Virus record (IMG/VR): IMGVR_UViG_3300042402_002333
Span: 1 to 50,491 of that record
Reading direction: 5' to 3' (one strand)
Origin: a virus
Length of the DNA stretch: 50,491 nt
Positions 14,101 to 43,021 of the stretch are shown piece by piece. The notes beneath the pieces are model-generated. The model was given only the letters and a program-made list of their open reading frames with translations. It did not search any database and was not told the DNA's origin. Each line of letters begins with the position of its first letter. The first letter of the stretch is position 1. The position numbers and the translations under genes are program-made.

Positions 14101-17100
14101 ATTGACCAAACTCTGTTGGACGTGGACTGGAAATAGTTTGAGTATAAGCAAAAGTTTCAAACCCAAGATCAGCAAATACTGTACCAGTTGATCCTGGTGC
14201 TACTTGTAATTTGTTGCCTACGGGTGCAGCATCAGTGTTGGTTACAAAAATAGTCAAGTAGCCAGTTGCGGAAACTACGGCTGTAGCATTAGGAGCACCT
14301 GAGTTGGTTCCTGCTTCGCCGCCATTTATAGCAGCAGCAAGCCCTGTTACTGTGTTGTTAGGACTGGCCGGTACTGTAATGTCAACATTGTTTACTCGCA
14401 AAGTTTGCCCAGCAGTCAAACTAGTGGGAGCCAAAGTAGCTGTGATTGTACCATAACTTCTGGCCTGATTTACACTGCGTTCAACAACGCCACCTTTCCA
14501 CACTATGCTGGAATCTTGCGGCGCACCCACATACAAACTACAGTTGTATGGACACAAGTCTAAACTTTGCCCATAGTTAGTGTATTCTGCTATGGTGTTT
14601 TCTGTGATCAATTGTTGCTGAACAAACTGATTGATTTCAATTTCAATTACATCGCCCACAAACAAATCTTTGTTGATGGTAATGTTATTACCTGACACTG
14701 AGAATGTGTTGTCAGCACCAACAATACTGTCTGTTTGATTGGTTAAGAACACATTGTTGACTAACACACTAACCGGAGCTGCCACTGTTCCTAACACAGT
14801 GTAAGTGTTAGAACTGTCATCTTGGCGAATAAATTTTTGTACGTTTCTGTCAACCACGTATACTGAACCTGCTTCAACCAATGTGTTGACTGTGGCATTA
14901 GAACATCCAATTATGACTTGACGCCCGTCTGTGCTGCACTGAACGCTGGTACCAAATCTTGCACCAGCTATAACTGCCACTGACGGGGTAATTGTTCCAG
15001 CAAGCTCATAATAGTATTGAGACGTTACACCGATGGCTGCTCCTGGGGTAGGAACATTATAGAATGTCAATGTACCAGCAGAGTAAGTGTAGTCAATGTT
15101 AAGACGTTGTAACACACTATCAACTGTGACTGAGAACGAGTAGATGTTGTCTACTGTGAACAAATATGGTGACAATGAATAAGTTGCACCACTGGCAGTA
15201 AATGCTTTGAAAAACAGTCGAGAAATATTAATAACATCGTTTGCTACCGGAACTGAGGTAAATGTCACAGTAGTAAAACTAGCATTTACAGTGTAATCAG
15301 TTGTGAGTATTAGTACTGCACCATTCTTGGTCACAACAATTTGATTGGCATTGTTAATTTGTATGTTATTGCTGATGTCAGCTGTGTTGCTAACACCATC
15401 AGCTCTGTATTGTAAAAATTGATTGTTCCATTGTACCTGACCGTATGCATAAACTGTGTTTAGTCCAGGAGCACCAACATACAACCAACGCTCGTCAAGA
15501 CTCATGGCCACACTATACCCAAATTCTCCAGCACCTGGGGTTGTGGTGGTGGTAGTACCTGGCAATGTCAACAACTGTGATTGTATCCAAGGACTAGTAT
15601 TAACTGCGCCCGAAGTTGGATCTCGCCACAGAACTACAGCATAACCATTATCAGCTTGTGCGCCCGGACCAAGACTAGCACTGGCTCCACCAACTGCGAA
15701 TGTTTGAGAACCAGCATCCACAGCATTACCATACCCACGCAACCCTGTGGTGTTTAATGTAAGAACAGTGTCTTGATCATTGATAGGACTGATAGGAACA
15801 TACGTGGCAGCATCACTTCTTACATACAAATAGATGCCGCCTTTAGCAGTACCTGATCCAAATCCATAACGTGAACTGCCAACAAACAATGCCGATAGAT
15901 CTGTGGCTTGTGCTACTGATGCTCCGTATTGTTCACTAGCATCAAGTAATACCGGAGCCAATATCAAACGATCAGTAAATGGATTTTGTTTTTCTAATAC
16001 TTCCCATACTCCGCTGCCATCATCGTCAACCCAAACTTTAGCGCCTGGAAAAATTTGTTGAGCATAAGGCAAATTTAGCACATCACTAGCTTGTTCTACC
16101 CGCATGGTCTTTAAAGTAAAACCAATGCCTGTACCATCAACCACAGTGCGATCTCCTTCAAGATCTAATGCAATGTTTACTGTGGTTATGTTTGGAACGC
16201 TTAATATTTTATAAACACCATTGACTTCTGTGTCAAAGAATCGTATGATCAATTGATCACCAGTGCTCAACCCGTGCTGACCACTAAATATTACTCTGCT
16301 GGTGCCATTGAGATTATCGCAAACGTGCTGGATAGTGCCCGGCACAGCTTCTGCACGATAAATGGCCCAATCATAATTGTTCACTTTGGCAACCCAAATG
16401 ATTGTTCCAACTATGATAGAATTTATATTGGCATTGAGATTTGCAGGATCGTCTAACTCAAACACTGTGATATCAACATCATCAATATTGACATATCCAG
16501 CTGATGGCAAAGAAATATCTGTTGGCAATGTAGTTGTGGTCGGTAACAGTGCAGGAGTGGTTAACGGGAAACTGCTTTTCCACACATCACTGAGTAAAAT
16601 TTGTTGATCAGCAGTGCTTGGTTCATTTGGTACTACAACTTGTACCAAACTGGGATTGCTAGACAATAATGCACGATTCAATCGTAAATCAAAGAAACTA
16701 CGATTGGCGTTTGCACCGTAAACTCCACGTTGTATTGCCCAGTTTTCATAAACTTTGTAATCAGCAACTTCTTTGTTGAACTTGGCCTGACCAAACAAAT
16801 CAATACTATTCTTAGTTCCTTTAGTTCCAAGAAATTCTCTATAAATGTTAAGTTGACTGACGTCATCAAGATTTAATGCAGCCATGTATTGCCTTGGTCT
16901 AAAACCTATCAATCCATAACTTAACAAATCATTGTCAGCAATTAAGTTAGCAGAATTAATGTCATAACTGTTGCTGAGTTGGTCAGCTTTGTTTGCTAAA
17001 TTAGCTAGAAGACCTTGTTCAATGAATGTGTAATCGCTTTGATTCCAATCATTGTAGTTGAACTTGGTACTTGGCTGCACAATAGTGGCCGCACTCCAGT

Positions 17101-20100
17101 AAGCACCTTTGTAGGTTACTATTTCACCTTTGGCGTAAGTTTTTAATCCAGTCCAAGTTGGTATGTTGTTTTGATTTAAAATAAAACCTTGTGCATTGAC
17201 ACTCCCGTCCCACTCTGTGCTAGTGGTTCCAGAAAGATATAGTCTACTTTGTCTAGCACCAGTTATGGGTTCAAAGATCAAATCACCAAACAAACTGGCA
17301 TTATTCAACACAATCATACTTTCAAAACTAGTATAACGCATGTCAATGAAACTCAAACTTTGATTGTTTAAAGGCTGAATACTAAAGTTGTTGTTTACTC
17401 GCACAATGTTGAGATCACGTGTGGGGAAATCTTTACGATTCTGATCTAATATTACATGTTCCGCAGTTTGTGATGTTATATTGTCCACTACTGCTTGTTC
17501 TTTGAACACAGACAGTCCTATAGCCAAAGGATTCAAATTAATTAAACTGCCATTGCCCCAGCCTTGTTGACTCCAGTATATGAACTCGTACACCATTTGT
17601 GACCAGGTCATCAAGTAACCATTGGTCTGATTGGTAAATTCAAAGCCTTGTGATTCTAGAAACTTTCCATAACTCAACAAGAAATTAGCCACAGCACTTT
17701 CAGTTGTGAATACAAACCCATAGGGAATTTGAGTAATAGTGTCTGTATAATTGGCAGGCACTTGAATGGTCTTGTCGGCCACACTGTATGTTTCAAATTG
17801 CCCAACTGGAATGCTAGTAAATGTGTTAAAATATGGTCTAGCAGTGCTATACCCAAATACTGCATAACCACCATCCACAACTTGAATCACAACTGAACTA
17901 TAGATCAATCTGTCAAATGGTTGATTCTTGTACACCAGCAGTTGATAACTCTCTGGCGGAATTTGCAAAGAGGCGTTGGTTGAATTAGGGCTGGACTTTT
18001 CGGTGTAAATTTTTAGATATTGTTTGTCAGAGAATGACGCCATTCTGTAACACAGTCGTACATCAAGATTTTGCAGGTCTTTTTCCAATGCCACAGTACT
18101 GTTGGTACCTGTGATACGGTTGTAATCCACAATCCAGTTGATGTAACTGGCTTTGCTGGTGCCGTCGCCATACACTTGCACGCCATTGGCATCAAGTCTA
18201 TATCGACCATTGTAAAGATATTGATCAAACTCTGTGCTGTATTTGTATAAGTCTCTGTCAGCCAACAGTGCAAAGAATTTTGCCGGTCGAGTCAAGGCTA
18301 GCAACCGCATCACAGCAAATGGGTAGTCGCTTGAATTCCACCACGAAGCTTCTGTTGGGCCGCCATCACCGGGCACCCAACTTTTCTGAAACATTTGTGA
18401 ATTATACCCACCTACTACTGACTCCAATGGTGCTAATAGATCACCGGCAGTATCAGTTGGTAGTACAGAAGTTAGTCCGGGCCTAGCATAGGCGAGTAAT
18501 GTGTATGCGCCCACTGGATCCCTCACAAGACCAAGTTCTAAATCATCCCACAAATTCATATTGTCAGATGTATATGGTGCAGGACCGTAAGTGATTTCCC
18601 ACCAGTCTGGTTGAACTGAAAAGCCAAGCATTTCCCAAGGAGTCAATTCTGGCTGTTGAGTATCATAGAAATAACGATAGATACCGCGCCATGCGCCCAA
18701 TAATGTGCCACCATTAAGTTTGTTAGTTGACGAACTGTAGTTGTAGGTAAACGGATTGCTGACACTATAGTTTTGTTCGTTGTAGTTTAATTTGTTCCAT
18801 CCAACATAGGTCAAGAAATTTGTTTCTAATATGGTATTGATTTCTGAAGAACTATACCCAGTGTTTCTAAACTGACCTGGCAATACGTCTGCAACATCAA
18901 GCGGCACTGGGTTGCCATCTAATTTAATGTTGTTGTAAATTCTAGTTTCAAATTCTAACAATACTTCGTCACGAATATCACCAAAAATAGGAGTCTGACT
19001 GCCATCATGTCCTAATATGACCAGTTGTTCACCTGTGCTGGTTTTAACTGGAATAATAGCAGGACGCCATGCAGGATACAATCCCATCTTGCTGGGTGTA
19101 TTGGGCACATAAGTACCGTAAGTGGTAGTATATTCTTGGAGGGACACCACATCACCAATGGCTAGTTCAATTAAAATGTCAATACGCGGGCCATCTGTGG
19201 CTACTGTATATTCTAAGTCTCTAGTTAAAATTTCGTCATTCACATACACATTCATACCAAGGTAATTAGATGATGTATAGTTGTATACTTGCACAGTATC
19301 AAACACTTGACTAGTTGTATAACTTACTGTGTATGTTGTTGTAGTAAACACTGCACTAGCTGGCAGCATGTCACTCCAATAGAATGGATTACTTGATGTG
19401 CGACCTAATGTAATTTCGGCTATAACTGTGTCAAGCACTTGTGATGCAGTTTCATACTGAATAGTTTGTCTGGTCACAGCTTCCAGCATTTGATTTTTGT
19501 ACTTTTGATATTCTCTGCTGTTGTATTCTAATGCACCAAAAATATTGTACTGCTGAGATCTCATAAAGTATCCAGCAAGAGTCAACGGAGAACTTTGTTG
19601 TAAAATTATTTGGCCATAAGGTATAATATTGCCAAGATCTCTAGTGTTATTTGCACCGTTAATTGCGCCACTGAACGTGGTTAAATTTTGGCAGATACTA
19701 TCGTAGTGAGTGCGCAACGTACCCAAAGTAAAACTTGGACTGTCAGCATTTAGTGGATTGTTATTGAGATTTAGTGGAACTTGATAAAATGCCACTTGAC
19801 TAACTTGATCACTGAGCACTTCAACTTCAATTACATCTCCTACTAAATGTACGGTGCTGAATGTAATAGTTGTGGTATTAGCAGTGGTAGCCACTGTGTA
19901 TGTGCCTGGATCTTGGAAAATTGATCCCACAAACACTTTTACACTAGGCACAGTTGTTACTGCATTTGACTGAACAGCAACATCCAATTGCAACGATTGT
20001 AAATTATAAACAAACTTAAACTGCTGTCGCATCAATGTAGGCACCGCAGCAGTTTGCCAGCCAATCAATCTTTCATACACAGTTCTTGACGCATACTCAT

Positions 20101-22894
20101 AAACAAATCCAGAACTAATTGGTGCTGTGGTGCTGACATTGTCACGCACATACACAAATGTGTCTGAATACAAATTGTTATCAAACACAATATCTCCCAC
20201 ATTTGTTAACGTGAGATATTTGAGTGTTAACTGCAATACTGGATCTGTGATTCCTGATCCGGTAGCATAACTAAACAATTTTGTGCCAGCAAATGTTGAA
20301 CTTGGGTATGTGGTTTTGTTTGCCAAACTTACGCCGTTTGCATCAAATATATCAAACAATGGTGCCTGTTGTATTGCGGTTTTTTGTTGTGCTTCTAACC
20401 AATTTACCCCATCATACCAGTAAGTAACACCAGTTTGTGAACCGCCAAGACATACTGTGTTTTGATTGGTTAAAATTTCTCCGTCAACTGCTTCTACCAA
20501 ATTTATAATTGGTTGTGTAATTAACGGCGCTACAGTATCTGGTACAATAAAATTCACTACATAAATTTTGCTGCGTACAACTGGATCTGTATCAGCCGCA
20601 AATACCACACGACTACCATTGACAAATGTATAATCATTCACTGAATAGCCATTGCTGCCTTCTATATTACTAAACGCATCAGTTTCCGTAAAGTCAATAA
20701 TATCTACTGGTTGTTTGGCATCTGTGCCCATGTCATACAATCTAATCCCACCACGGAATTGTATAATTGGACGCTTGCCTTTTTTATCGTTATCAATTAC
20801 AATTGGAGTATCGTTATATGCACCAGTGGCATTAAGTACATCAATATGGAACCAACGATTACTACGGCTCCAAGCATTTAGATCAGGACTATCTCGATTG
20901 ATAGTAAAGTAATCAATATCATTTGCAGAAGCATAGTCTTCTGGAGTAATATAATTTTCTACAGGCAACAACTCTATTGCAGTGCCCACTCCACTTACAT
21001 AGTATTGTGGGTTTTGACTAGCAGTTGCAGTCATAGTGCCATTGGCCGAAGTTAGTGTTAATGCTGGACCATTTTTAGTTACACTTACTTTGAATTGACT
21101 ACTGCTAAAAATTGTGTGAACATAATATGTCACGCCAGTGCTGACTCCGCCAAACACGGTGCCAGTAAAAATAACTTCTTGTCCAACAATCATTCCTGCT
21201 GTAGATTCTGTGGTAATAAGATTAATACCTGATGCAGTGTTTGTACAAATAAAAGCAAAAGACCCTGTAGCATAACTAGCTGGCGATACATTGCCTAAAA
21301 ATTGAACTTTTAGTCCATTGGTGAATACTACACCATTTGGACTGGTATAAGCAGTTTTTCCTACAATGTCTTCTACATAAATTGTGCTGTCGTTGCTTTG
21401 TTCAACCAGTCGTATAGTTCCAAATATTTCTGGGTCAGTACCATCCTGGTAATACAATGTATCCAGCTTGGCAGTAAGCACTGGCATTTCAATGATATAA
21501 CCAGCTTGATTTTTATACCACTGTGTGCTGGCATACTCTGTGCCATACCGTATGGTCCATTTTTCCAAGTTGTTTATGGGTTGTATGCTGCCTAATGAAA
21601 GGTATGTATAGTCACCAACTGTAACATAACTGATGCGCCAAACGTTATAGTAGTCCGTGGCCGGATCACCATAAGAGTTAGCAAATACCAGTGTCCGTGT
21701 GTTAAGTCCGGTAATTCCATCTATGCCGCCATATGTGGCAATAAACTGGTCAAGTCTGGCGCCGTCTATATCTTCAAAACTCAAATTACTAACAAGATCC
21801 ACAGTGCCAATGCTGGTAAGATAGTAAAAGAAATCTTGTGTTGTTTTTTGCGGTACGTTAAAATTTATTGTACCAAGGTCAATGCCATTGTCAGTAACAC
21901 CATACACTGATCTAGAACTTACGTTTGGAGTAACAGGATTTTCGCCGCTGATACCTGGATCGGTTTGAATCCAAAATCCTGGACCATCTCCTGGTTCGGC
22001 ATCAATGATGCTAATGGTGCCTGTCATGAGACTTTGATTTTGACAAGAATAATACAGAATGTCAGGTGCATCTTGAGGCACAACAAATGTCACTGTGCCA
22101 ACTGTTGATCCATTGCGTGTTACACCTAAGTTGTAGGCATCACCTGTGCCTGTAGTGGCAGTAGTTTTAATCCAGAATGGAAAATCACCTTGCAGAAACA
22201 AGTTAAATGTATATGTGTTGCCGCGAATCAAAGTGATAGTAGCATTAGGGTTGTTGTCAATGTTGTAACTGGTAACATTGGTACGTGTGACTTTGTAGTT
22301 GACAGTTTCTTTGTTGTTTTGTGCTACTTGGAATGTGTAGTTACCACCACGCACTAAATTTATTGTGGGATTGTTTCCAGTTATTCCTGAAAATGTGTAA
22401 ACTCCATTGGCTCTATTCACAACAAAATTTTGACTCAGCGGCACACCAGGTGATTGCACAGTAACCACATCGGGTCCATTGGGTACCCAATAGTATTGAC
22501 TGAAGTTTACAAATGTATCAAAATCAATGAATGGATCAAATGTATAGTAATCGCTAGTGTATAGTCGGCTGGGTTGGGTTGATGGACTACCTTGATATAC
22601 CAATGTATCAGTTATGCCTGGATACGTAATAACATCTATTATTTTGTTATTGTCTGCAGGATCAATACTAATAACACCTGGCTCAAGTTGATAGTCCGAG
22701 CGAGTTTTGTCGGGCTCAATCACATACTTGTCGTTGGGGTTTACACCTGGGCCAACTGTGCGGCCAATATAGCCTTGGGTCTTTTTAAACTTTGGTTCTT
22801 GAATCAACTGATCCAGTGTAGCAGCCAAAAACTGCTTGTTGGCGTCAGTCTGAAAAATCTCAGGAAGAAAATCTACACTGCGTACTGTTGCCAT
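8135..22894 (-). CDS. Giant 4919-residue virion structural protein
   Basis: A single uninterrupted frame covers 14.8 kb. The N-terminus (FLPEIFQTDANKQFLAATLD) matches what I remember of very large structural proteins in T4-like aquatic phages. Residues about 175-300 hold two or three cupredoxin-like strand blocks (TLIRGNTYTFNLF). Between about 2330 and 3130 there are at least five FG-GAP-like blades, such as GEFGYSVAMSLDERWLYVGA and GQFGYSVAVNDTALNLVVGS, implying a beta-propeller interrupted by insertions. Two other short modules occur twice: LTSANGTM near residues 618 and 4068, and VGxTYTI(V/A)SVG near 2995 and 4797. Residues near 3800-3866 hold paired GTGY/GSGY strands. The ATG overlaps the gp6 stop (TAATG), so it is made together with a baseplate wedge protein. 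It could be a baseplate-attached fibre or the functional replacement of gp7/gp10; that is inference. Confidence 0.8.
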   Translation of the reverse strand: MATVRSVDFLPEIFQTDANKQFLAATLDQLIQEPKFKKTQGYIGRTVGPGVNPNDKYVIEPDKTRSDYQLEPGVISIDPADNNKIIDVITYPGITDTLVYQGSPSTQPSRLYTSDYYTFDPFIDFDTFVNFSQYYWVPNGPDVVTVQSPGVPLSQNFVVNRANGVYTFSGITGNNPTINLVRGGNYTFQVAQNNKETVNYKVTRTNVTSYNIDNNPNATITLIRGNTYTFNLFLQGDFPFWIKTTATTGTGDAYNLGVTRNGSTVGTVTFVVPQDAPDILYYSCQNQSLMTGTISIIDAEPGDGPGFWIQTDPGISGENPVTPNVSSRSVYGVTDNGIDLGTINFNVPQKTTQDFFYYLTSIGTVDLVSNLSFEDIDGARLDQFIATYGGIDGITGLNTRTLVFANSYGDPATDYYNVWRISYVTVGDYTYLSLGSIQPINNLEKWTIRYGTEYASTQWYKNQAGYIIEMPVLTAKLDTLYYQDGTDPEIFGTIRLVEQSNDSTIYVEDIVGKTAYTSPNGVVFTNGLKVQFLGNVSPASYATGSFAFICTNTASGINLITTESTAGMIVGQEVIFTGTVFGGVSTGVTYYVHTIFSSSQFKVSVTKNGPALTLTSANGTMTATASQNPQYYVSGVGTAIELLPVENYITPEDYASANDIDYFTINRDSPDLNAWSRSNRWFHIDVLNATGAYNDTPIVIDNDKKGKRPIIQFRGGIRLYDMGTDAKQPVDIIDFTETDAFSNIEGSNGYSVNDYTFVNGSRVVFAADTDPVVRSKIYVVNFIVPDTVAPLITQPIINLVEAVDGEILTNQNTVCLGGSQTGVTYWYDGVNWLEAQQKTAIQQAPLFDIFDANGVSLANKTTYPSSTFAGTKLFSYATGSGITDPVLQLTLKYLTLTNVGDIVFDNNLYSDTFVYVRDNVSTTAPISSGFVYEYASRTVYERLIGWQTAAVPTLMRQQFKFVYNLQSLQLDVAVQSNAVTTVPSVKVFVGSIFQDPGTYTVATTANTTTITFSTVHLVGDVIEVEVLSDQVSQVAFYQVPLNLNNNPLNADSPSFTLGTLRTHYDSICQNLTTFSGAINGANNTRDLGNIIPYGQIILQQSSPLTLAGYFMRSQQYNIFGALEYNSREYQKYKNQMLEAVTRQTIQYETASQVLDTVIAEITLGRTSSNPFYWSDMLPASAVFTTTTYTVSYTTSQVFDTVQVYNYTSSNYLGMNVYVNDEILTRDLEYTVATDGPRIDILIELAIGDVVSLQEYTTTYGTYVPNTPSKMGLYPAWRPAIIPVKTSTGEQLVILGHDGSQTPIFGDIRDEVLLEFETRIYNNIKLDGNPVPLDVADVLPGQFRNTGYSSSEINTILETNFLTYVGWNKLNYNEQNYSVSNPFTYNYSSSTNKLNGGTLLGAWRGIYRYFYDTQQPELTPWEMLGFSVQPDWWEITYGPAPYTSDNMNLWDDLELGLVRDPVGAYTLLAYARPGLTSVLPTDTAGDLLAPLESVVGGYNSQMFQKSWVPGDGGPTEASWWNSSDYPFAVMRLLALTRPAKFFALLADRDLYKYSTEFDQYLYNGRYRLDANGVQVYGDGTSKASYINWIVDYNRITGTNSTVALEKDLQNLDVRLCYRMASFSDKQYLKIYTEKSSPNSTNASLQIPPESYQLLVYKNQPFDRLIYSSVVIQVVDGGYAVFGYSTARPYFNTFTSIPVGQFETYSVADKTIQVPANYTDTITQIPYGFVFTTESAVANFLLSYGKFLESQGFEFTNQTNGYLMTWSQMVYEFIYWSQQGWGNGSLINLNPLAIGLSVFKEQAVVDNITSQTAEHVILDQNRKDFPTRDLNIVRVNNNFSIQPLNNQSLSFIDMRYTSFESMIVLNNASLFGDLIFEPITGARQSRLYLSGTTSTEWDGSVNAQGFILNQNNIPTWTGLKTYAKGEIVTYKGAYWSAATIVQPSTKFNYNDWNQSDYTFIEQGLLANLANKADQLSNSYDINSANLIADNDLLSYGLIGFRPRQYMAALNLDDVSQLNIYREFLGTKGTKNSIDLFGQAKFNKEVADYKVYENWAIQRGVYGANANRSFFDLRLNRALLSSNPSLVQVVVPNEPSTADQQILLSDVWKSSFPLTTPALLPTTTTLPTDISLPSAGYVNIDDVDITVFELDDPANLNANINSIIVGTIIWVAKVNNYDWAIYRAEAVPGTIQHVCDNLNGTSRVIFSGQHGLSTGDQLIIRFFDTEVNGVYKILSVPNITTVNIALDLEGDRTVVDGTGIGFTLKTMRVEQASDVLNLPYAQQIFPGAKVWVDDDGSGVWEVLEKQNPFTDRLILAPVLLDASEQYGASVAQATDLSALFVGSSRYGFGSGTAKGGIYLYVRSDAATYVPISPINDQDTVLTLNTTGLRGYGNAVDAGSQTFAVGGASASLGPGAQADNGYAVVLWRDPTSGAVNTSPWIQSQLLTLPGTTTTTTPGAGEFGYSVAMSLDERWLYVGAPGLNTVYAYGQVQWNNQFLQYRADGVSNTADISNNIQINNANQIVVTKNGAVLILTTDYTVNASFTTVTFTSVPVANDVINISRLFFKAFTASGATYSLSPYLFTVDNIYSFSVTVDSVLQRLNIDYTYSAGTLTFYNVPTPGAAIGVTSQYYYELAGTITPSVAVIAGARFGTSVQCSTDGRQVIIGCSNATVNTLVEAGSVYVVDRNVQKFIRQDDSSNTYTVLGTVAAPVSVLVNNVFLTNQTDSIVGADNTFSVSGNNITINKDLFVGDVIEIEINQFVQQQLITENTIAEYTNYGQSLDLCPYNCSLYVGAPQDSSIVWKGGVVERSVNQARSYGTITATLAPTSLTAGQTLRVNNVDITVPASPNNTVTGLAAAINGGEAGTNSGAPNATAVVSATGYLTIFVTNTDAAPVGNKLQVAPGSTGTVFADLGFETFAYTQTISSPRPTEFGQFGYSVAVNDTALNLVVGSPKGTLYSPMVFDYNSTTEKANTTFDGNSTAFFSSVSMVLGTAAAGSFVVGRQYTIVSVGTTDFTAIGAISNGVGIRFTATGSGSGTGTASYYITRSLTQSGAVYTYDYLPSNSLSVANPGKFVFGQQVETNTVSYLDQFGYAVSYNSGILVTTAPGEDFEDSTLGNFGAAYIFENPTRRLAWEPITVQQPVVDIRLLTSVYMYDRISSAKSQFFDFFDPLQGKVLGAAQENIDFISAIDPASYNVGPVNNRGDTWSTAHVGEVWWNISTVRFINPNQDNPTYASRRWGQVFPGSRVDVYQWISSTVPPANYIGVGTPYTTTSYVVSSRLNQSGTFVTEYYFWVRGITETASQLGKTLSVATVASYIQEPKASGISYIAPINSSTIAIYNALDYIVAADTIISVEFDQVLTDANVHTEYELIAQGQDDAFLSDNLYRKLQDSFCGVDTFGNQVPDIGLNYAQRYGVQFRPRQSMFVDRFLALKNYIQRANDVFALYPITESRSFALLNSAEPEPSAASSEWNLRVANLEILGFQNIYAVPLGYKYLVVTNSLNRGLWTINEVQTTATDPSVRELVLSRVQNYDTRQYWSYVNWYKPGYNSSSTIVTEVPNYATLATLSVAIGSSVKVTANTQGKFEIYLRTDTGWDRVGLEDGTIEISAEIYDYALGRFGFDVEVFDAQYFDQEPVIETRKIIQAINEELFIDDLKIERNQSLTLMFNFILSEFLAPEWLIKTSLIDVQHKVRDLVPYQNYIRDNQDFVSDYLQEVKPYHVQVREFNLTYDGADDYSGSLTDFDLPAYYDTNLTVPQYVSPILLPYQHATAQAFNTLSDTAPNSTLWPTWPYSQWFDNYLLHVDSITVTNQGTGYTIAPTVLIVPAEGDTGSGAEATAVLNSSGNIVSITLINGGSGYRSTPTVVFDGGNGTGVAAYPQMDNGLVRSFRTVLKYDRYQYQTSVLTWSPDGTYENGTLVRYDDRVWQADSADGSSAVIGPVFNLEDWTLIDAATLSGVNRTMGFYVPGVNELGLDLQLLVNGTSYPGVQVWGDYFLGSAPASPTLVCTATNATTNEITCVQTVRLSLNDPIRFYGNVFGGIVAGTVYYVNGIVDATHFTVALAPDGLAVSLTSANGTMIADVPEPIDATYASSFTDQYLGLRPTDINVDGGEFIGPYEGYAPEELVNGSEYDTLDFRVYTRPGADWTGRGHGFAIGSYNYVYNNSALDWSSLVQNPVNIEVSNVTTDTDLTPDVDYVADWETQTITAIPGGGITTGDVINIAAYEMGGGNQLFRGNYTGSEAGNSVVIPVNADEIYELVLFVNGMNVAGATWTAYAESEVWDYQNTYPQQIIVNNSGLYYRALQTVPPGILLNNALYWDEFVPTTQSLVTLPVTYGVGDGVSITAMGFENPQHSWSTATTQYHIVTESDVLTNSINLDNSMQGTNVANIVVTVNGKRLQPPEGIEWTGDGTSSSFGLPQRGGGYPQSAINAYTDIQVWVDNVLQVQNYGSVIGNYYVTNYDGSNTPGRQVVFFTPPVDGAEILISVNTIAQYTVAVGSPNKLILIPLLNQGDQLAITSWNDTSQQDPLTLVFIGPVTTGLTLVEPYDSTGYDYPGVANDTSGSFDFSLGIAIPDNDFNLGREGLIADRLWVTLDGNRLYAGVDYAVEGQYLILGSGIIGSAQVLAVTEFTQSIVPDAMAFRLFQDMRGVQTTFRITTTTTTTLAQAVSETADIIYVIDAAALSEPTLSAGIFGVVTINGERILYRVRDLATNSISGLQRGTAGTAASAHSADAEVYDMGIGNRQPQVDQNYIVSDTSTGDGSTTIFYAPTIEFDLTDSSFEINSIEVYVGGSRARVGYYAGQFVIGQTYTIASVGNTNWNAIGLPSNVYPLPGVVFTATGVGTGTGIAGDSLASNYFQETDYAPLAIQFITANDLLAPGAGVEVVILQRRGVTWYAPGVSTPSDGRPLQLTETNAARFLRGL

Positions 22895-35563: not shown

Positions 35564-36580
35564 ATGACTAATCTATTCCGCAAGGCCGCAATCTTCACTG
35601 ACATACACTTTGGACTCAAATCCAACTCAACACTACACAATGAAGATTGTTTGGCCTTTGTAAAATGGGCCACTGCCAAGGCCAAGGCGGAAGGCTGCGA
35701 GACTGCTATGTTCTTAGGCGACTGGCACAACAACCGTGCCAGCCTAAACATTGTTACACTGAACTACAGCCTTCGATCACTGGAGCACCTAAATGCAAAT
35801 TTTGACCGCGTTTACTTTATTCCTGGCAATCACGATCTTTATTACCGCGATAAGAGGGATATCCAAAGCGTTGAATGGGCAAAGCATCTCTCTAATGTAC
35901 ATATTTGTAATGATTGGTTCAGCAGTGGCGACGTTGTTATTGCACCTTGGCTATGCGGTGATGACCACAAGCGTATTCCAAAACTGACCGGCAAGTACAT
36001 GTTCGGGCACTTTGAACTGCCTGGCTACTTGATGAATGCCATGGTAGAAATGCCCGACCATGGTGAGGTGCGTAGAGAAGACTTTGAGAATTTTGAACAT
36101 GTATTCACCGGACACTTTCACAAGCGACAGACTAAGAAAAATATTACCTACATCGGTAATGCGTTCCCTCACAATTATGCAGATGCTGGTGACGACGAAC
36201 GAGGACTTACTGTACTGGAATGGGGAGCAGCGCCTGCGTTTCATGCTTGGCCTGCTCAACCCACGTACAGGGTTTACGGACTTGCAAACCTTATTGATAA
36301 CGCTCCATCGCTTCTCAAGCCCAAGATGCATGTGCGTGTTGGACTAGACATTGAGATTTCATACGAAGAAGCCAACTTCATCAAAGAAACATTTGTAAAA
36401 GACTACAATCTGCGTGAGATGAGTCTGATACCAAATAAGAATTCAGATGTAGACACAGACATGGCTCCTGGCGAAATCAAGTTTGAATCAGTAGATCAAA
36501 TTGTTACAGACCAACTCACTAACATTGAATCAGAATTCTACGACAACAAGTTACTATTGAAGATTTATCAAAACTTATGA
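35564..36580 (+). CDS. gp47: Recombination endonuclease subunit gp47 (Mre11/SbcD-like)
   Basis: The 338-residue protein has the metallophosphatase motifs in order: IFTDIHFG at the start, FLGDWHNNRASLN near residue 52, IPGNHDLYYRD near residue 88, and later FGHFELPG and FTGHFHKRQTKK. The Asp, His and Asn residues of DIH, GDWH, GNHD and GHFH coordinate two Mn ions of the nuclease active site. Length equals T4 gp47 (339). Together with gp46 it forms the nuclease that makes 3' single strands for recombination-dependent replication and degrades host DNA. Its stop overlaps the start of a radical SAM gene (ATGA), which separates it from gp46, an insertion not present in T4. Confidence 0.93.
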   Translation: MTNLFRKAAIFTDIHFGLKSNSTLHNEDCLAFVKWATAKAKAEGCETAMFLGDWHNNRASLNIVTLNYSLRSLEHLNANFDRVYFIPGNHDLYYRDKRDIQSVEWAKHLSNVHICNDWFSSGDVVIAPWLCGDDHKRIPKLTGKYMFGHFELPGYLMNAMVEMPDHGEVRREDFENFEHVFTGHFHKRQTKKNITYIGNAFPHNYADAGDDERGLTVLEWGAAPAFHAWPAQPTYRVYGLANLIDNAPSLLKPKMHVRVGLDIEISYEEANFIKETFVKDYNLREMSLIPNKNSDVDTDMAPGEIKFESVDQIVTDQLTNIESEFYDNKLLLKIYQNL

Positions 36581-37461
36581 TTGTTAGAGAAAGCATTAAA
36601 TATTTACAAGTAGAAAATACCACTAAGTGCAATGCTTGGTGTCCTGGATGTTCAAGGAACAACGACGGATACGGATTAAGTAATTTTGTAATTGAAGATT
36701 TGACTACTACTCGGCTTCAAGAAGTATTAGAAGAATATCAAAATCTTGAAGTGATACAATTTTGTGGTACCTATGGTGACACTATAGCTGCCAGTAATGT
36801 TCTTGAACAAATTACATTGGCTAAAAATTATGCCAAAAAAATACAAATTCACACGCACGGCGGTATTAGAAATACCGAATGGTGGCATAATTTTGCTGTG
36901 CTGCTGAGCGACATCGAGCATGATGTTTGGTTTGCATTAGATGGTCTCAAAGGCGTACACGAGATATACAGGCAAGGTACCAATTTTGATAAAACAATTG
37001 CCAATGCACAAGCATTCATCAATGCCGGAGGATATGCAACCTGGCAATTTATTCCGTGGGCACACAACGAACATCAGATCATGCAATGCATAAAAATGAG
37101 CCAGGATTTAAAATTCAAAAAGTTTAAATTTGTAAAAAGTGTTAGAAAACAGTTTCAGGGTCGCCATTGGCAGACTGGCGAACCCATTGAATTCAAAGCG
37201 TGGAAAAACGATTATAGTTTTAATACCTACGAAACAATACCAATTAGAAATCAAGTGTTAAAAAAAGATTGTAGACATCTGTCAGATCCAAGTTTGTATC
37301 TTAATGCCACTGGAAACATATCAGTGTGTTGCTGGTTTAACAATTATCGTCAAAGTGCAGAGTTTGAGTTACTTCCAGATATAGAATCTGAATTGAGCGT
37401 GGCTCCTTTACAAACTTGTTTACAATCATGCGGTAGCTATGCTATAATAGATAATATATGA
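36577..37461 (+). CDS. Radical SAM/SPASM protein 1 of the gp47-gp46 operon
   Basis: The 294-residue protein has the cluster motif C18-x3-C22-x2-C25 (KCNAWCPGC). The GGE position is replaced by FCGTYGDT, the variant CGxxGD(P/T) shared by the two radical SAM proteins downstream. A WW pair (NTEWWHNF), FALDGLKGVHEIYR and a HNEHQI motif follow, all conserved in the paralogues. The SPASM-like tail has C, then YLNATGNISVCCW, and finally CLQSC. It overlaps gp47 and gp46 by ATGA at both ends, so it is expressed with the recombination proteins. Its codons look more AT-rich than those of gp47 and gp46, which suggests later acquisition. The substrate is unknown; the SPASM family mostly modifies peptides and proteins. 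Confidence 0.85.
   Translation: MIVRESIKYLQVENTTKCNAWCPGCSRNNDGYGLSNFVIEDLTTTRLQEVLEEYQNLEVIQFCGTYGDTIAASNVLEQITLAKNYAKKIQIHTHGGIRNTEWWHNFAVLLSDIEHDVWFALDGLKGVHEIYRQGTNFDKTIANAQAFINAGGYATWQFIPWAHNEHQIMQCIKMSQDLKFKKFKFVKSVRKQFQGRHWQTGEPIEFKAWKNDYSFNTYETIPIRNQVLKKDCRHLSDPSLYLNATGNISVCCWFNNYRQSAEFELLPDIESELSVAPLQTCLQSCGSYAIIDNI
37419..37457 (+). promoter_or_regulatory. Possible internal promoter before gp46
   Basis: TTTACA (37419-37424) and TATAAT (37443-37448), 18 bases apart, lie in the 3' end of the radical SAM gene. The -10 box ends nine bases before the gp46 ATG, and no Shine-Dalgarno is present. It may give extra gp46 transcript, though ATGA coupling alone could explain translation. Confidence 0.4.
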
Positions 37462-39539
37462 TCCAAATACGAAATCTCACTGTTAAAAACTTTATGAGTG
37501 TGGGTGCTGCCACACAGGCCATTGACTTTGATCGCAATGATCTTACATTAGTACTGGGTGAAAACTTAGACCTAGGTGGCGATGGTAGCCGTAATGGCAC
37601 AGGTAAGACCACAATCATCAATGCGCTAAGTTATGCATTGTATGGCCAAGCACTGTCAAACATCCGCAAAGACAACTTAGTAAACAAGACCAATGCCAAA
37701 CACATGTTGGTCAGTTTAGACTTTCACATCAACGGCACAGACTACAAAATTGAGCGTGGTCGCAAACCCAATGTTCTCAAGTTCTATGTGAACAACGAAC
37801 ACAAGGCCGCAGAGGACGAAGCACAAGGAGATTCAAGAGAAACACAAGATGCCATAGAACGTATTATTGGCATGAGCCACGACATGTTCAAACATGTGCT
37901 GGCATTGAACACCTACACCGAACCGTTCCTAAGTTTGAAGGCCAATGACCAACGCACTATCATTGAACAGTTGTTGGGCATTACTTTATTGAGTGAGCGA
38001 GCAGATCGTATCAAAGAACTCAATAGACAGACTAAAGATGCCATCCAGTCTGAAGAGTTTAGAATTCGTGCTGTGCAAGAAGCCAACAAGCGCATTGAAG
38101 AACAGATTGAAAGTCTAAAGCGTAGACAAGTGCTTTGGCAAAAGAAGTATGACAGTGACGTGGCTTATCTAGTTGGTCAGTATAACGATCTGGCAAAGAT
38201 TGATATTGAACTAGAACTGTTGGCTCACAAAGATCTAGCTGTGTGGTCTGCAAGAAAACAACAACAAGATGCATATACTGCTCTTGTTGGTCGGCAAACT
38301 GCTTGGAAACAAAAACAAAACAAAGACATTGGTGAGTTAGAATCAACCTACAACCAACTCAGCCACATTAACATTGCAGCAGAACTGCAAGCACACACAG
38401 ACTTGGCTGCTTACACTCAAAAAGCCAAAGACATTGTGGATCTTGAAAAATACATTGCTAGATGTGGTGCAGATGAAGCCAAAGAACAAAAAGTAATTGA
38501 TAAGTTAAAAGCCGAAATTGAAGAATTAAAAGATCACAAGTGCTATGCGTGTGGACAAGACTTCCACGATACCAATCACGAAACAGTATTGGCTGCTAAA
38601 GAGAAAGCCTTGCAAGAGGCAGCGTTACAAGCTCTATCCACAAATACACAGTGGATTGAGAACACTGATGCACTGCAAGCATTAGGCAAGTTGGGTACCA
38701 AACCTACAACATATTATGCAACAGAAACAGAAGCAATTCGACATTCTAGTGAGTTGGAAAACATTCAACACAAGATTGATGCCAAACGTGCAGAAACAGA
38801 TCCCTATGCTGAACAGTTGGCAGAACACACACCTGTAGAAGTTGGCGCACAACCTGTTACGCATTATGATACTGAAACACAAGCAATTGATCATCGCAGT
38901 CGAATGAATACAATGCTAACACAGATCAATAGCAAAGCACTAGAGACCGATCCGTATACAGAACAAATTACCGAAATGCAACAACAGGCCCTACAGATAG
39001 TGAGTTATGATCATTTAAACGAACTCACAAGAGTACAAGATCATCAAGACTTCTTGTTAAAACTGTTGACCTCAAAAGACTCGTTTGTGCGTAAGAAGAT
39101 TATTGAGCAAAATTTGAGCTATTTGAATCAACGTCTCACACACTACTTGGATAGAATTGGCTTGCCACACACAGTAAAATTCATGAACGATCTAAGTGTG
39201 AGCATTGAGGAACTGGGTCGTGAACTGGACTTTGACAACCTGAGTCGCGGTGAACGCAATCGCCTGATCCTTAGCATGAGTTGGGCATTCCGTGATGTGT
39301 GGGAAAGTTTGTACTCGCCAATCAACTTGTTGTTTATTGACGAGATGATTGACAACGGCTTGGACACACAAGGTGTAGAGAATGCCTTAGGCTTGCTGAA
39401 GAAGATGAGTCGTGAACGTCACAAGTCAATTTGGCTTGTGAGTCACAGAGACGAACTAACCAGCAGGGTAGAAAACATTCTCAAGGTCATCAAAGAGAAT
39501 GGCTTTACCAGTTACAACACGGATGTAGAAATTGCGTAA
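37458..39539 (+). CDS. gp46: Recombination endonuclease subunit gp46 (Rad50/SbcC-like ATPase)
   Basis: The 693-residue protein has the Walker A motif around residues 43-52 (GSRNGTGKTT), a zinc hook KCYACGQ near residue 360 at the tip of a long coiled coil, the ABC signature LSRGERNRLILS near residue 594, and Walker B LLFIDEMIDNGLD shortly after, followed by a WLVSHRDE switch. T4 gp46 has 560 residues; the extra length is in the coiled coil, which shows internal duplication: a YYATETEAIRHSSELENIQH unit is repeated as HYDTETQAIDHRSRMNTMLT, each followed by an ETDPY.EQ element. With gp47 it resects DNA ends. The start overlaps the upstream stop (ATGA) and its stop overlaps a TTG-started radical SAM gene. 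Confidence 0.94.
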   Translation: MIQIRNLTVKNFMSVGAATQAIDFDRNDLTLVLGENLDLGGDGSRNGTGKTTIINALSYALYGQALSNIRKDNLVNKTNAKHMLVSLDFHINGTDYKIERGRKPNVLKFYVNNEHKAAEDEAQGDSRETQDAIERIIGMSHDMFKHVLALNTYTEPFLSLKANDQRTIIEQLLGITLLSERADRIKELNRQTKDAIQSEEFRIRAVQEANKRIEEQIESLKRRQVLWQKKYDSDVAYLVGQYNDLAKIDIELELLAHKDLAVWSARKQQQDAYTALVGRQTAWKQKQNKDIGELESTYNQLSHINIAAELQAHTDLAAYTQKAKDIVDLEKYIARCGADEAKEQKVIDKLKAEIEELKDHKCYACGQDFHDTNHETVLAAKEKALQEAALQALSTNTQWIENTDALQALGKLGTKPTTYYATETEAIRHSSELENIQHKIDAKRAETDPYAEQLAEHTPVEVGAQPVTHYDTETQAIDHRSRMNTMLTQINSKALETDPYTEQITEMQQQALQIVSYDHLNELTRVQDHQDFLLKLLTSKDSFVRKKIIEQNLSYLNQRLTHYLDRIGLPHTVKFMNDLSVSIEELGRELDFDNLSRGERNRLILSMSWAFRDVWESLYSPINLLFIDEMIDNGLDTQGVENALGLLKKMSRERHKSIWLVSHRDELTSRVENILKVIKENGFTSYNTDVEIA

Positions 39540-40383
39540 GATCAAAGTATTACATCTTGAACCCACTGATGTGTGTCAAGCCGCATGTCCAGCATGTGCT
39601 AGAGAGACTGACTCAAAGTTTCGCAAGGATCAAAAACATCATTTGACCATTGGGCATATACAACGGCACTTTTCAGATCGCAGAATCAAGAGCTTAGATA
39701 AAGTGTTCATGTGCGGCAACTACGGAGATCCAGCCGCAGGTGCCTATACTGGTGACATGTACAAATGGTTTAGACAGCTAAACCCCACAATCACACTAGG
39801 CATGAATACCAACGGTGCCATACAAAACACTTTCTGGTGGCACGAAATTGGACGCTTGTTCAATCAACCTCAGGACTATGTGGTATTCAGCATTGATGGC
39901 CTAGAAGATACCAATGGCGTGTATAGAAAAGGTGTGAGCTGGACCAAGCTCATGCAAAATGCGCAGGCATTTATTGAAGCAGGCGGTTCGGCACACTGGG
40001 ACATGTTGATCTATCAACACAACGAACACCAAGTTGACGAGTGTGAGCAGCTGGCTCGAAACATGGGTTTTAAATGGTTTCGGGCCAAAGTCAGCAAACG
40101 ATCATTGATTGGCAGATTAGAGTGGCCAAGAAACTATCAGGCACAATCATTTGATGGTGTCATAAAGTGTCATGCACAGCAAGAAAAAAGTGCTTATATA
40201 GATGCCCGAGGCAATCTCGGCCCTTGCTGTTGGATAGGTGCCACACAAACAGATTTTGTTAGCACTGATTCTGTGGTAGACTTTTATCCAAAGAAACACG
40301 CAACTTGTGTTGCAACTTGCTCAACAGATCAATCGCAAACAGCATTTTCAAATCAGTGGCGCAAAGAAATTCAGTTATGTTAG
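39532..40383 (+). CDS. Radical SAM/SPASM protein 2 (TTG start)
   Basis: The 283-residue protein has the cluster motif C15-x3-C19-x2-C22 (VCQAACPAC), then FMCGNYGDP in place of GGEP, MNTNGAIQNTFWWHEI, FSIDGLEDTNGVYR and QHNEHQVDEC. The tail is KCHAQ, then YIDARGNLGPCCW and CVATC, the SPASM auxiliary-cluster pattern. It starts at TTG 39532, eight bases inside gp46, and ends seven bases after the next start. It is closely related in motif order to proteins 1 and 3, so the three are probably paralogues rather than separate acquisitions. The substrate is not known. A small peptide substrate would be expected by analogy with RiPP maturases, but I see no convincing short precursor gene beside it. 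Confidence 0.85.
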   Translation: MRKIKVLHLEPTDVCQAACPACARETDSKFRKDQKHHLTIGHIQRHFSDRRIKSLDKVFMCGNYGDPAAGAYTGDMYKWFRQLNPTITLGMNTNGAIQNTFWWHEIGRLFNQPQDYVVFSIDGLEDTNGVYRKGVSWTKLMQNAQAFIEAGGSAHWDMLIYQHNEHQVDECEQLARNMGFKWFRAKVSKRSLIGRLEWPRNYQAQSFDGVIKCHAQQEKSAYIDARGNLGPCCWIGATQTDFVSTDSVVDFYPKKHATCVATCSTDQSQTAFSNQWRKEIQLC

Positions 40384-41387
40384 CAACTTGGCATTTTCAC
40401 ATTGAGATTTCCAGCAAGTGTACCTTGCGGTGTCCTCGGTGTGCCCGCCAAGAAGTACCTGATGGACTTGTAAACACAGAACTAGACTTAGAATTTTTCA
40501 AACGCAACTTCACTCCAGAGTTTGTGAAAGCCAATGTAGAGAAGATTACATTCTGTGGCGATGATGGTGATCCTATCTATGCACATGATTTGATTGCAGT
40601 AATTAGCTATCTTAAAAGTATAAAACCTGTTGAAATTGTCATTGTTACCAATGGATCACACAAAAAATTAACTTGGTGGACTCAATTGGGTACTTTGTTG
40701 GACTCAAATGATAGTGTTCACTTTAGTATAGATGGATACGACAACGCCAGCAATAACTTGTATCGAGTAAACAGCGATTATGACAGCATCATTGACGGTT
40801 TACAAACATTGCGTAGCATGAGTGATTGCCAAATTGTGTGGGCTGCTATTGCATTCAAGTTCAACGAACATCACATAGACACAATGAAAAAAGTTGCCAA
40901 AAAACTTGGCGTAGACAGATTTCAATTGACCAAGAGCACAAAGTTTGGCAGTGTGTATCCATCGTATGGGGTTGACGATCCACTTGAACCCAGCGTAAAA
41001 TTTGTCAGCAGTTCACATCGCTTTGAACGTGAAGTTACTGCATTAACAGAAACAAGTGAATGGACTAAAATTCCACTCACAAACAATCGACTATTCAATC
41101 AAACTAAAAGTCGTAACGGTATTACTCCGTTATGCGAGATAGGCAACAAAGGATTGTACATTGATGCTCGCGGCAGGCTATTCCCTTGCTGTTGGGTAGC
41201 CAACAGATACAATCACAATTTAGACTGGCAGCAATTAGCAAACAACTTTGATCTAAAAACAAAAACATTAACAGACGTATTGGCAGATAGTTTTTGGGCT
41301 AACGAGTTCCAAACTTTCAAGTGGCAAGAATGTCAAACCAAATGCTCTAGTGCATTGGTTGACGAAAAATACGCTACTTCTTGGTAA
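40377..41387 (+). CDS. Radical SAM/SPASM protein 3
   Basis: The best start is the ATG at 40377 (MLATWHFHIEIS), which gives 336 residues; the longer reading from 40305 adds residues that lie in the previous gene. It has C15-x3-C19-x2-C22 (KCTLRCPRC), FCGDDGDPIY, a TNGSHKKLTWW segment, FSIDGYDNASNNLYR and a NEHHID element. The tail holds LCEIGNKGLYIDARGRLFPC followed by another C and W, then ECQTKC. Compared with the other two it has about 50 extra residues before the SPASM cysteines (KFGSVYPSYGVDDPLEPS). It is the last coupled gene of the operon and looks more AT-rich than gp46. The reaction is unknown. Confidence 0.85.
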   Translation: MLATWHFHIEISSKCTLRCPRCARQEVPDGLVNTELDLEFFKRNFTPEFVKANVEKITFCGDDGDPIYAHDLIAVISYLKSIKPVEIVIVTNGSHKKLTWWTQLGTLLDSNDSVHFSIDGYDNASNNLYRVNSDYDSIIDGLQTLRSMSDCQIVWAAIAFKFNEHHIDTMKKVAKKLGVDRFQLTKSTKFGSVYPSYGVDDPLEPSVKFVSSSHRFEREVTALTETSEWTKIPLTNNRLFNQTKSRNGITPLCEIGNKGLYIDARGRLFPCCWVANRYNHNLDWQQLANNFDLKTKTLTDVLADSFWANEFQTFKWQECQTKCSSALVDEKYATSW

Positions 41388-41421
41388 GAGGACTAACTAT
41401 AGCACATAATCAAAATCACAC

Positions 41422-41850
41422 ATGACATGGCTTTATCAAGATACCCCAATTGAGACACTGCCCGAAGAATGTGTAGGTTTTGTTTATCTAATTACAAATA
41501 ATCTATCTGGGCGCAAGTACATAGGCAAAAAACTCGCAAAATTTAGCAAGACAACTTATAAAACTGTAACACAAAAGAACGGCACAAAGAAGCGGAAGAA
41601 GATACGATCAAAGATCGATTCAGATTGGAGAGAGTACTATGGGTCAAGCCCAGAATTAACCGCAGACGTAATCACTTTAGGCACCGAAAACTTTACCAGA
41701 GAAATACTTTACTATTGTAAATCAAAATCAGAATGTTCTTACATTGAAGCAAGAGAACAGTTCACAAGAAAAGTATTAGAATCAACAGATTATTATAACG
41801 GCCATATTCAAGTTCGTGTGCATGGCTCACACATCATAAACAAACTTTAA
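41422..41850 (+). CDS. GIY-YIG family nuclease
   Basis: The 142-residue protein has the GIY-YIG core in GFVYLITNNLSGRKYIGKK (residues 19-37; FVY at 20-22, YIG at 33-35), a basic linker, DWREYYGSSPEL with the likely catalytic Arg, and a later SYIEAREQF with the expected catalytic Glu. Similar free-standing proteins occur in T4-like phages of aquatic bacteria. It cuts DNA, with roles possible in recombination, host DNA breakdown or homing. It follows the radical SAM gene after 34 bases that hold a weak TTGGTA/CATAAT promoter. Directly after its stop begins the 390-base ORF-free structured segment, which could make it a homing-type nuclease linked to an RNA element. Confidence 0.82.
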   Translation: MTWLYQDTPIETLPEECVGFVYLITNNLSGRKYIGKKLAKFSKTTYKTVTQKNGTKKRKKIRSKIDSDWREYYGSSPELTADVITLGTENFTREILYYCKSKSECSYIEAREQFTRKVLESTDYYNGHIQVRVHGSHIINKL

Positions 41851-42240
41851 TCACGACTCTGTGCTGAGTGTTTGACTCAGCCCCATTGAGGAACGGTGCA
41901 ATACCCGGTCTAGACTTGGGCGTCAAAGGCAACTGTTAACTTAAGGCAGCAAATGGTTTGGGCTCTGTGAAAAAGCAACCCATGCTCGTAGGATTTAGAT
42001 CTATTCTGGATTACTAGGGTTCCGTTGATATGTGAAGCTAGAGTAGGGGGTACCGGTCAACCGCCTCCGTGTGTGCAAACACAATCTCTTTAGAATAGAT
42101 GACTGCGGTCACTCAGATGATGCATTCAATTCACCGTGCATACGGTGAATTATGACCACAGTATCTAGATGATACTAAGTCAAAGAAACAGTTAGTTGTT
42201 GAGCGATAGCGAAAACAACAGACTTGCGTAGCAAGTCTTT
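41851..42240 (+). ncRNA. Candidate large structured RNA with terminator
   Basis: No ORF covers this segment on either strand, although the genome is otherwise packed. It can form many helices: CTGAGT/ACTCAG (41864-41880); AACCC/GGGTT (41977-42021); a nine-pair long-range helix ATCTATTCT (41999-42007) with AGAATAGAT (42092-42100); GGGGG/CCTCC (42046-42068) capped by CGG-TCAA-CCG; TGTGT-GCAA-ACACA with a GNRA-type loop (42070-42083); ACTGCGGTCA/TGACCACAGT (42102-42162, one mismatch) enclosing AATTCACCG/CGGTGAATT (42128-42151); AGTATC/GATACT (42160-42176); GTTGTT/AACAAC (42195-42219). It ends in the terminator at 42220-42240. The strand is taken from that terminator and from the upstream gene. 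I do not recognise tmRNA, RNase P or a group I core. Confidence 0.65.
42220..42240 (+). terminator. Terminator hairpin at the end of the structured RNA
   Basis: AGACTTGC and GCAAGTCT form an eight-pair stem with a three-base loop, followed by TT before the stop of the convergent gene. The short U-run makes it moderate, but it sits exactly between two convergent transcripts. Confidence 0.6.
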
Positions 42241-43021
42241 AAAGTAGTTGTTCTAATCTCTTAGAAAATTGTTCAACATAAAGATTATTAGATTGAATAC
42301 CTGGATGCATTTTGTCTTGGTTTACATCAATTCGTTGATTACGCATATTGTTATATAGATTCAACCAATGCTCTTGATTGATAGTACCTGCACTATCAAA
42401 ATTATTGTGCAGCTTATGATAGAGTTGAAAAACTTCATCATCATTTCTAGTGTTTGAGTTTAATAATTTTTGTGTATATTTGGTATATTGTCCTGGTAGA
42501 CAATCAGTTTTTTTTACAAAAAAATTGTGATCCCACGAACATAATCCATTAACAAAAAACACTTGTGTATTGGTAAGTTTACTAACTTTGAGTATGGTAT
42601 TCACATACTTAACTAAATTTAATATCTCATAACAGTCATGTGCTAAAGTAGTAAATCTATCTCTTATTTCATTGAGATAGTCACTAGAGTAATTGATACT
42701 ATGAGTGTTGATTGGTTGACACTGAGCTCTTGGAATAAACACTTGTCGTGTGGTATACAATTCAAACCCTAGTTCTAACTCGTACCTAGGGGTACTAGTC
42801 CATTCAACTATGGCATAGTCAACTGAATAATCAACTAGTGCTTGTATGGTGTCTTGAAAAATTCCTGCATTTGACCTTCCAGCTTGACTAACATTGATTT
42901 TGATAGTTTTTGAAAAAAATCTGTCATGCAGTTGATTGACCCAAAGTAAAGGTTCGTTTTTTCCTAATGCAAATCCTGTGCCGGCTGTGTATGAGCATCC
43001 AGCAAACACTGTGTGACTCAT
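42239..43021 (-). CDS. SGNH/GDSL hydrolase-like protein
   Basis: The 260-residue protein has the SGNH block I as FAGCSYTAGTGF (Ser in GCSYT replaces the GDS form), block II-like VSQAGRSNAGIF with the conserved Gly/Asn, and a block V-like QDKMHPGIQSNN near residue 243 containing the Asp and His of the triad. SGNH enzymes hydrolyse ester or acetyl groups on lipids or sugars; related phage proteins act on surface glycans or are of unknown use. The gene is AT-rich. Its ATG overlaps the previous stop (ATGA), tying it to the small-gene operon 42239-44287. The substrate is not known; an acetyl-esterase acting on host glycan is one possibility. Confidence 0.68.
   Translation of the reverse strand: MSHTVFAGCSYTAGTGFALGKNEPLLWVNQLHDRFFSKTIKINVSQAGRSNAGIFQDTIQALVDYSVDYAIVEWTSTPRYELELGFELYTTRQVFIPRAQCQPINTHSINYSSDYLNEIRDRFTTLAHDCYEILNLVKYVNTILKVSKLTNTQVFFVNGLCSWDHNFFVKKTDCLPGQYTKYTQKLLNSNTRNDDEVFQLYHKLHNNFDSAGTINQEHWLNLYNNMRNQRIDVNQDKMHPGIQSNNLYVEQFSKRLEQLL

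Follow-up and report, generated by a model that had tools for sequence, protein, structure and literature searches.

A conserved structured RNA with a twin, fast-changing word in uncultured T4-like phages and its relatives in bacterial islands

The locus and its RNA gene

The DNA analysed here (the window, whose positions are used throughout) is the 50,491-nucleotide (nt) IMG/VR virus record IMGVR_UViG_3300042402_002333, in which a structured noncoding RNA, designated subtype A, occupies 41852-42240 of the plus strand (ends approximate). A plus-strand GIY-YIG nuclease gene of the SegE type (41422-41850; PF19835, phrog_447), the usual upstream neighbour of the RNA, precedes it, and a convergent minus-strand open reading frame (ORF) of 260 amino acids (aa) without a confident family (42239-43021) follows. 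The original prediction, made from the window's letters, had described 41851-42240 as an ORF-free gap encoding an ornate phage RNA. The gap was borne out, as the sole ORF of at least 30 aa (ATG, GTG or TTG starts) reaching into 41851-42238 is a 32-aa frame on the minus strand at 41834-41932. That the gap encodes a real structured RNA is considered almost certain, and comparison of homologues showed a predicted plus-strand RNA gene of about 390 nt that is conserved in uncultured T4-like phages and usually lies directly behind the GIY-YIG gene. The minimum free energy of the window RNA (-122.4 kcal/mol, z = -2.42, with 2 of 100 shuffles equally good) is modest support when taken alone, and the RNA is called real because homology and covariation, which support the ornate noncoding RNA at the sequence level, go beyond the fold energy.

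An iterated nhmmer profile matched the RNA in 197 of 214 loci, giving 165 distinct sequences; the 197 include the window itself, several contigs are present twice, and the 40-nt match in L206 is taken as chance. At least 120 loci came from an independent scan with the RNA core motif, and the RNA was present in 119 of 120. Additional loci were obtained with a protein of the cultured phage Melnitz as query, and the RNA was found in 56 of these 80, or in 52 of the 69 with enough sequence, while the remaining 17 of the 69, all at least 82 % identical to Melnitz, retain the gene without a detected RNA. In members of the Melnitz clade (L256, L257, L258, L260-L263 and L266) a sequence resembling TATAAATA, the T4 late-promoter motif, was seen by eye after the GIY-YIG gene, at the usual place of the RNA. 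A blastn comparison of five RNA variants with 50,697 phage records gave no match among cultured phages, a profile search of five phage regions (L215-L219) did not find the RNA, and the 13 stretches returned by a core-motif scan of genome contigs were without it except for the 40-nt chance match.

A coding gene was rejected, as the median longest open runs were 31-45 aa over the six frames (maximum 87) in 58 subtype A sequences, whose lengths spread over all three classes modulo 3. The RNA was assigned to the plus strand because G-U cells far exceed A-C cells (718 against 89). A transfer-messenger RNA (tmRNA) was likewise rejected, since ARAGORN found neither a tmRNA nor a tRNA in the window and a relative of the window, G001 (IMG/VR, 346,856 bases), has a separate tmRNA call. 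In this one phage record (G001, with L220 and L225), the call, given as tmRNA*, stands beside 27 tRNA genes.

Fold and twin word

RNAalifold, applied to the 58 sequences of subtype A and separately to an alignment of 25 sequences, predicted several helices in which compensatory changes are numerous; in the latter alignment, at least one sequence had changed on both sides of 42 of the 80 predicted pairs. Covariation was tested with our own phylogeny-aware script in the style of R-scape, in which parsimony substitutions were placed randomly on a FastTree tree (E<0.05). Significant column pairs numbered 11 of 81,810 in subtype A (10 helix pairs and one identity pair), 15 of 33,670 in the 3' domain (139 sequences; nine Watson-Crick, four identity and two other pairs), and 21 of 90,525 in a second subtype, B (12 Watson-Crick, three identity, all in the word described below, and six other pairs). 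Helix pairs of the homologues thus covary beyond the phylogeny-aware null.

The 5' domain (41855-41924) is made up of closing pairs 41855-57/41922-24, a hairpin at 41863-81, a helix 41882-85/41917-20 and a hairpin at 41890-41911, and most of its RNAalifold pairs show compensatory changes; 41864-41880 and 41894-41907 were significant, the former being paired in only 75 % of the sequences. The hairpin at 41955-41986 holds the strongest covarying pair (41959-41982, E=6.5e-5). It is followed by a hairpin at 41989-42016, obtained by RNAalifold and covariation, the loop of which may pair with 42092-42100. This long-range helix, 41999-42007/42092-42100, had been proposed at the outset and shows some covariation (42003-42098, 42006-42095), but lies outside the tree-corrected significant pairs; with its start in the loop and a partial overlap with the stem of that hairpin, it would form either a pseudoknot or an alternative pairing. 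A stem, 42040-43/42086-89, surrounds both the core, GGGGGTACCGGTCAACCGCCTCC (42046-42068), which is near-invariant in subtype A and altered in subtype B and some relatives, and a hairpin at 42071-42082, with 42040-42089 and 42073-42080 significant.

Of the pseudo-palindromic stem and enclosed hairpin originally described, the central hairpin (42129-42150; 42132-42147 significant) was supported, but the stem was not conserved, and what is conserved at this place is a direct repeat. The GNRA-capped hairpin (42195-42219), also named in the original prediction, is supported by covariation at 42198-42216 and 42199-42215, and the hairpin of the terminator that it placed at the end (42220-42238) covaries strongly (42223-42235, 42224-42234 and 42226-42232 significant), although its T run is short, so that it is best called terminator-like. 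RNAalifold also gave a candidate long-range pairing (41928-42158) for TGACC at 42153-42158, with a partner, 41928-31 or 41954-58, that differed between the two runs and mostly one-sided changes. Position 42034 covaries in a word-like manner with 42132 in one analysis and with 42147 in another, and the 5' strand of the central hairpin (42130-42134) could pair with 42031-42036 instead, which would be a possible switch.

The feature that goes beyond the original prediction is a hypervariable 7-nt word present on either side of the central hairpin, which varies among phages while its two copies match within one RNA. In the window, pattern parsing gave a first unit, TGAC-N-ACTC-word-G (42100-42122), and a second, TGAC-N-ATCT-word-A (42153-42174), with the identical words AGATGAT at 42115-42121 and 42167-42173. 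When 134 of 146 RNAs were parsed by pattern, without equality of the words being demanded, the four variable word positions agreed in 132, 134, 134 and 134 of them, and in the 139-sequence alignment three word positions agreed in 136, 139 and 137; L201, unequal in one comparison, was a mis-parse. Word identity pairs were significant in all three alignments (subtype A, 3' domain and subtype B), and of the four identity pairs in the 3' domain three lie within the word and one is 42034-42147. Eleven words were counted in the first phage set, in which equality was demanded, and additional words, again duplicated, were seen by eye in the Melnitz-related loci; the bacterial copies described below add others. 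Parsimony on a tree of 126 GIY-YIG sequences, selected for equal words, required 25, 9, 17 and 22 changes at the four word positions, and coordinated word change has therefore recurred. L001 and L004, which are 94 % identical, differ in both words and in the adjacent variable stretches. The distance from word to word is 47-64 nt, and once 79 nt.

Beside the words, CTC against TCT and G against A are fixed differences between the units. Because these flanking differences are all transitions, both units could pair, via G-U wobble, with one strand of the form 5'-U, complement of the word, GGG, U-3'. A partner search using anchored word contexts was negative.

Gene neighbours, RF01718 and bacterial islands

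The GIY-YIG protein was searched against IMG/VR, and among the best 80 of the matches listed, the 72 loci whose sequence continues for at least 450 nt 3' of the gene all have the RNA there, as do 4 of the 8 with less. The upstream nuclease gene, which had at first been thought either unrelated or a mobility partner, is by this adjacency no incidental neighbour, and the largely constant gene neighbourhood would argue against a jumping cassette. A same-strand GIY-YIG gene was upstream in 104 of the 119 RNA-bearing loci of the motif scan; 10 of the other 15 have less than 800 nt of upstream sequence, and L089, L130, L144, L153 and L201 have at least 2 kb yet no same-strand GIY-YIG gene. Two gene clusters supplied 91 of 138 immediate upstream neighbours of the GIY-YIG gene, and two supplied 76 of 148 downstream neighbours. 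Genes of 238-337 aa lie between the GIY-YIG gene and the RNA in 12 loci (L006, L031, L032, L055, L067, L093, L094, L100, L137, L148, L175 and L198). Proteins of clusters C9, C10 and C11 were found also 3' of the RNA on the opposite strand, and those of C11, which occupy the intervening position at some loci, resemble the 260-aa ORF of the window by eye.

Ahead of the RNA the window encodes a late sigma factor and SbcD-like and SbcC-like genes, which we take to be the counterparts of T4 gp55, gp47 and gp46, and it also encodes portal and baseplate genes; from these the phage is read as T4-like. Four radical-SAM-family proteins are encoded at 341-1363 (minus strand), 36577-37458, 39532-40380 and 40329-41384, three of these genes being interleaved with the SbcC-like gene and the GIY-YIG gene, and a single minus-strand ORF of 4919 aa spans 8135-22894.

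The lack of a match to known RNAs, noted originally, was confirmed for the window itself: cmscan with 4227 Rfam models gave no match in the window, and in 41400-42400 at E<=10 there were just two Rfam matches, both chance-level. RF01718, the 'Polynucleobacter-1' motif, gave no hit in the window at its gathering cut-off (37 bits) and none at E<=10 in 41400-42400. The RNA is nevertheless tied to this orphan family by its relatives, as RF01718 matched the 5' half in all 20 loci chosen from 88 subtype B sequences, and was present in 3 of 20 loci of a mixed divergent set. Subtype A has its 3' half in common with subtype B, and its 5' half differs and fails RF01718. RF01718 thus corresponds to one part of a longer RNA, since it matches the 5' half of divergent loci, and the window RNA represents a sister form whose 5' half is different: the 141-nt model covers the 5' half of the subtype B phage RNAs, but lacks the 3' half that holds the core and the twin words. 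The article of 2010 tabulates RF01718 as probably an RNA and 'probably cis-regulatory', gives Burkholderiales and fresh water or estuary as its sources, and in the portion used here states no link to phages (Weinberg et al. 2010, PMC2864571).

Among bacteria, RF01718 scored over its cut-off in 3 of the 399 genomes sampled from the order to which a Duganella genome belongs and, within one genus, probably Polynucleobacter (1.6-3.2 Mb among 40 listed), in 19 of 186. Altogether 27 bacterial places of the RNA were collected, 26 of them over the cut-off, and RF01718 is followed there by a 3' half that on reading resembles the phage one. Identical 7-nt words were present in 23 of 26 readable 3' halves (21 by script and two by eye), the truncated copy L387 being excluded from the 26. 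At all 27 places a DUF6641 gene adjoins the RNA and is oriented oppositely to it, and DUF6641 was beside the RNA in islands only, with no match among the phage loci compared. No open-licence PMC paper was recognised as describing the phage RNA, and none as naming DUF6641. Among 21 neighbourhoods of 20 kb, an integrase was present in 18, a short tyrosine recombinase in 19 and a clamp-loader-like ATPase (phrog_168) in 16, and a 198-aa protein of the phage-integrase family lies 3' of the RNA in 20 of the 27 island loci. PADLOC, given proteins chosen by eye from 10 of the 21 neighbourhoods, reported defence genes in 8 (none in L400 and L406), namely Zorya type I, PDC-M33 with a methyltransferase, and type I, II, IIG and III restriction genes. 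One island protein (L400:13559-15361) combines a CapR homology domain with DUF4379 repeats. Phages of the kind studied here may have these islands as their satellites.

Likenesses to other RNAs are partial. GOLLD, ROOL and OLE are associated with phages and are larger than the window RNA. IS110 bridge RNAs guide two DNA sites with an identical overlap through two recognition loops that share an identical stretch, a likeness to the twin units seen here, but neither an IS110 recombinase nor a target was found. A phage copy of an island RNA lacking its protein partner and carrying direct repeats would resemble what we take to be the pseudo-ToxI arrangement; DUF6641 is not known to be a toxin, unlike the partner in a type III toxin-antitoxin system. 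The likeness to GOLLD, ROOL and OLE is that of ornate, large RNAs (PMC12286853), and the window differs in matching no Rfam family.

Possible modes of action

Since a similar RNA is found in two gene contexts that differ from each other, it most probably acts in trans. The reading to which we give about an even chance is a trans-acting RNA that presents two seeds to one changing partner, probably in a conflict between phage and island. The 3' domain, with the same 7-nt word twice around a hairpin, would base-pair through both words with one partner nucleic acid encoded elsewhere, probably in a host or island, and a change in the partner would force both words to change together. That the two copies read one shared partner in trans is held with slightly less than even confidence. 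Equal, fast-changing words and the failure to find a partner in the phage suggest a partner elsewhere, or else a process that requires equal copies. The phage RNA might have its role in a conflict between phage and island, where it could mimic the island RNA or compete with it; this role is rated the most likely because defence-bearing islands hold the same RNA beside DUF6641, and such a conflict or mimicry role is put forward tentatively.

Several observations weigh against this reading. The bacterial 3' half was likened to the phage form by reading, and the phage profile matches it weakly (E 0.019 and 0.26, in two of four). Phage and island words are different sets, so that mimicry of the word is unsupported; DUF6641 was not found in G000-G004, and the proteins given to PADLOC were chosen by eye. 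Words were unequal in L035 and L036 among the parsed phage RNAs and in L373 (one position), L381 and L386 (two each) among the bacterial ones, and an unbiased longest-repeat test was moderately clear (mean 7.26 against 6.01 in shuffled sequences, 189 RNAs). The unpaired fraction in the consensus fold is 0.55 for word 1 and 0.73 for word 2, against an average of 0.48, so that word 1 barely stands above the average. The complement of the word, with G-U allowed, is not enriched within the RNA (59 observed, 63.5 expected) or in its flanks (82 against 72.7 expected), and a homologous partner site could be made out neither in G001-G004 nor in the window, the single coding match shared by G001 and G002 having the look of a chance one. 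The window, G001 and G002 contain no exact complement of their own word plus GGG, and their G-U-tolerant sites (3, 8 and 12) do not outnumber those of other words.

Rather less probable, though to be taken seriously, is a housekeeping RNA for replication, recombination or late transcription, placed at the end of an operon that includes the GIY-YIG gene, whose twin word binds a phage factor and which the islands, as satellites, carry with a clamp-loader-like ATPase in order to exploit the phage. The late sigma factor, SbcD-like and SbcC-like genes ahead of the RNA in the window, the two clusters that make up 91 of 138 neighbours upstream of the GIY-YIG gene, and the phrog_168 ATPase in 16 of 21 island neighbourhoods are in its favour, but the words change fast for a conserved factor, and residues of the GIY-YIG protein, the one protein compared, show no strong correlation with the word (mutual information at most 0.24).

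We regard as improbable an RNA-guided recombination or nicking of DNA, in which the units would be guides for two DNA sites sharing an identical overlap, with the GIY-YIG protein as the phage enzyme and the short tyrosine recombinase as that of the islands. An overlap for strand exchange would demand identity without a complement, and the 198-aa phage-integrase-family protein stands downstream in 20 of 27 island loci; against this, the target is not enriched in the phage genomes searched, homologues of the island integrase were not found in the window or G001-G004, and the word spacing is variable. A purely cis-acting element, either a 3' untranslated region or a bidirectional terminator placed where convergent operons meet, is given the same low standing: the convergent arrangement in the window and its 3' hairpins fit it, but about 390 conserved bases with a near-invariant core and twin words do not, nor do the 12 loci in which genes intervene between the GIY-YIG gene and the RNA, or the bacterial copies in another gene context. 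A mobile cassette of a GIY-YIG homing nuclease with the RNA as passenger is very improbable, since its tight adjacency is offset by the largely constant neighbours upstream (91 of 138 from two clusters) and downstream (76 of 148 from two), by the 17 of 69 Melnitz-related loci that keep the gene without a detected RNA, and by an island RNA that accompanies DUF6641, for which the phage loci compared gave no match.

A further reading would be a class of RNAs, carried by T4-like phages and by integrative islands with defence genes, whose self-matching, rapidly retargeted dual word determines specificity either in conflicts between phage and island or in DNA transactions guided by RNA, a possibility offered with reserve. 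By these results, an orphan motif of 2010 becomes half of a larger RNA common to phages and defence-bearing islands, and the rule that the two fast-changing words are almost always equal opens a way to search for the hidden partner. Should the conflict reading be true, the RNA would represent an arms race with a readable specificity.
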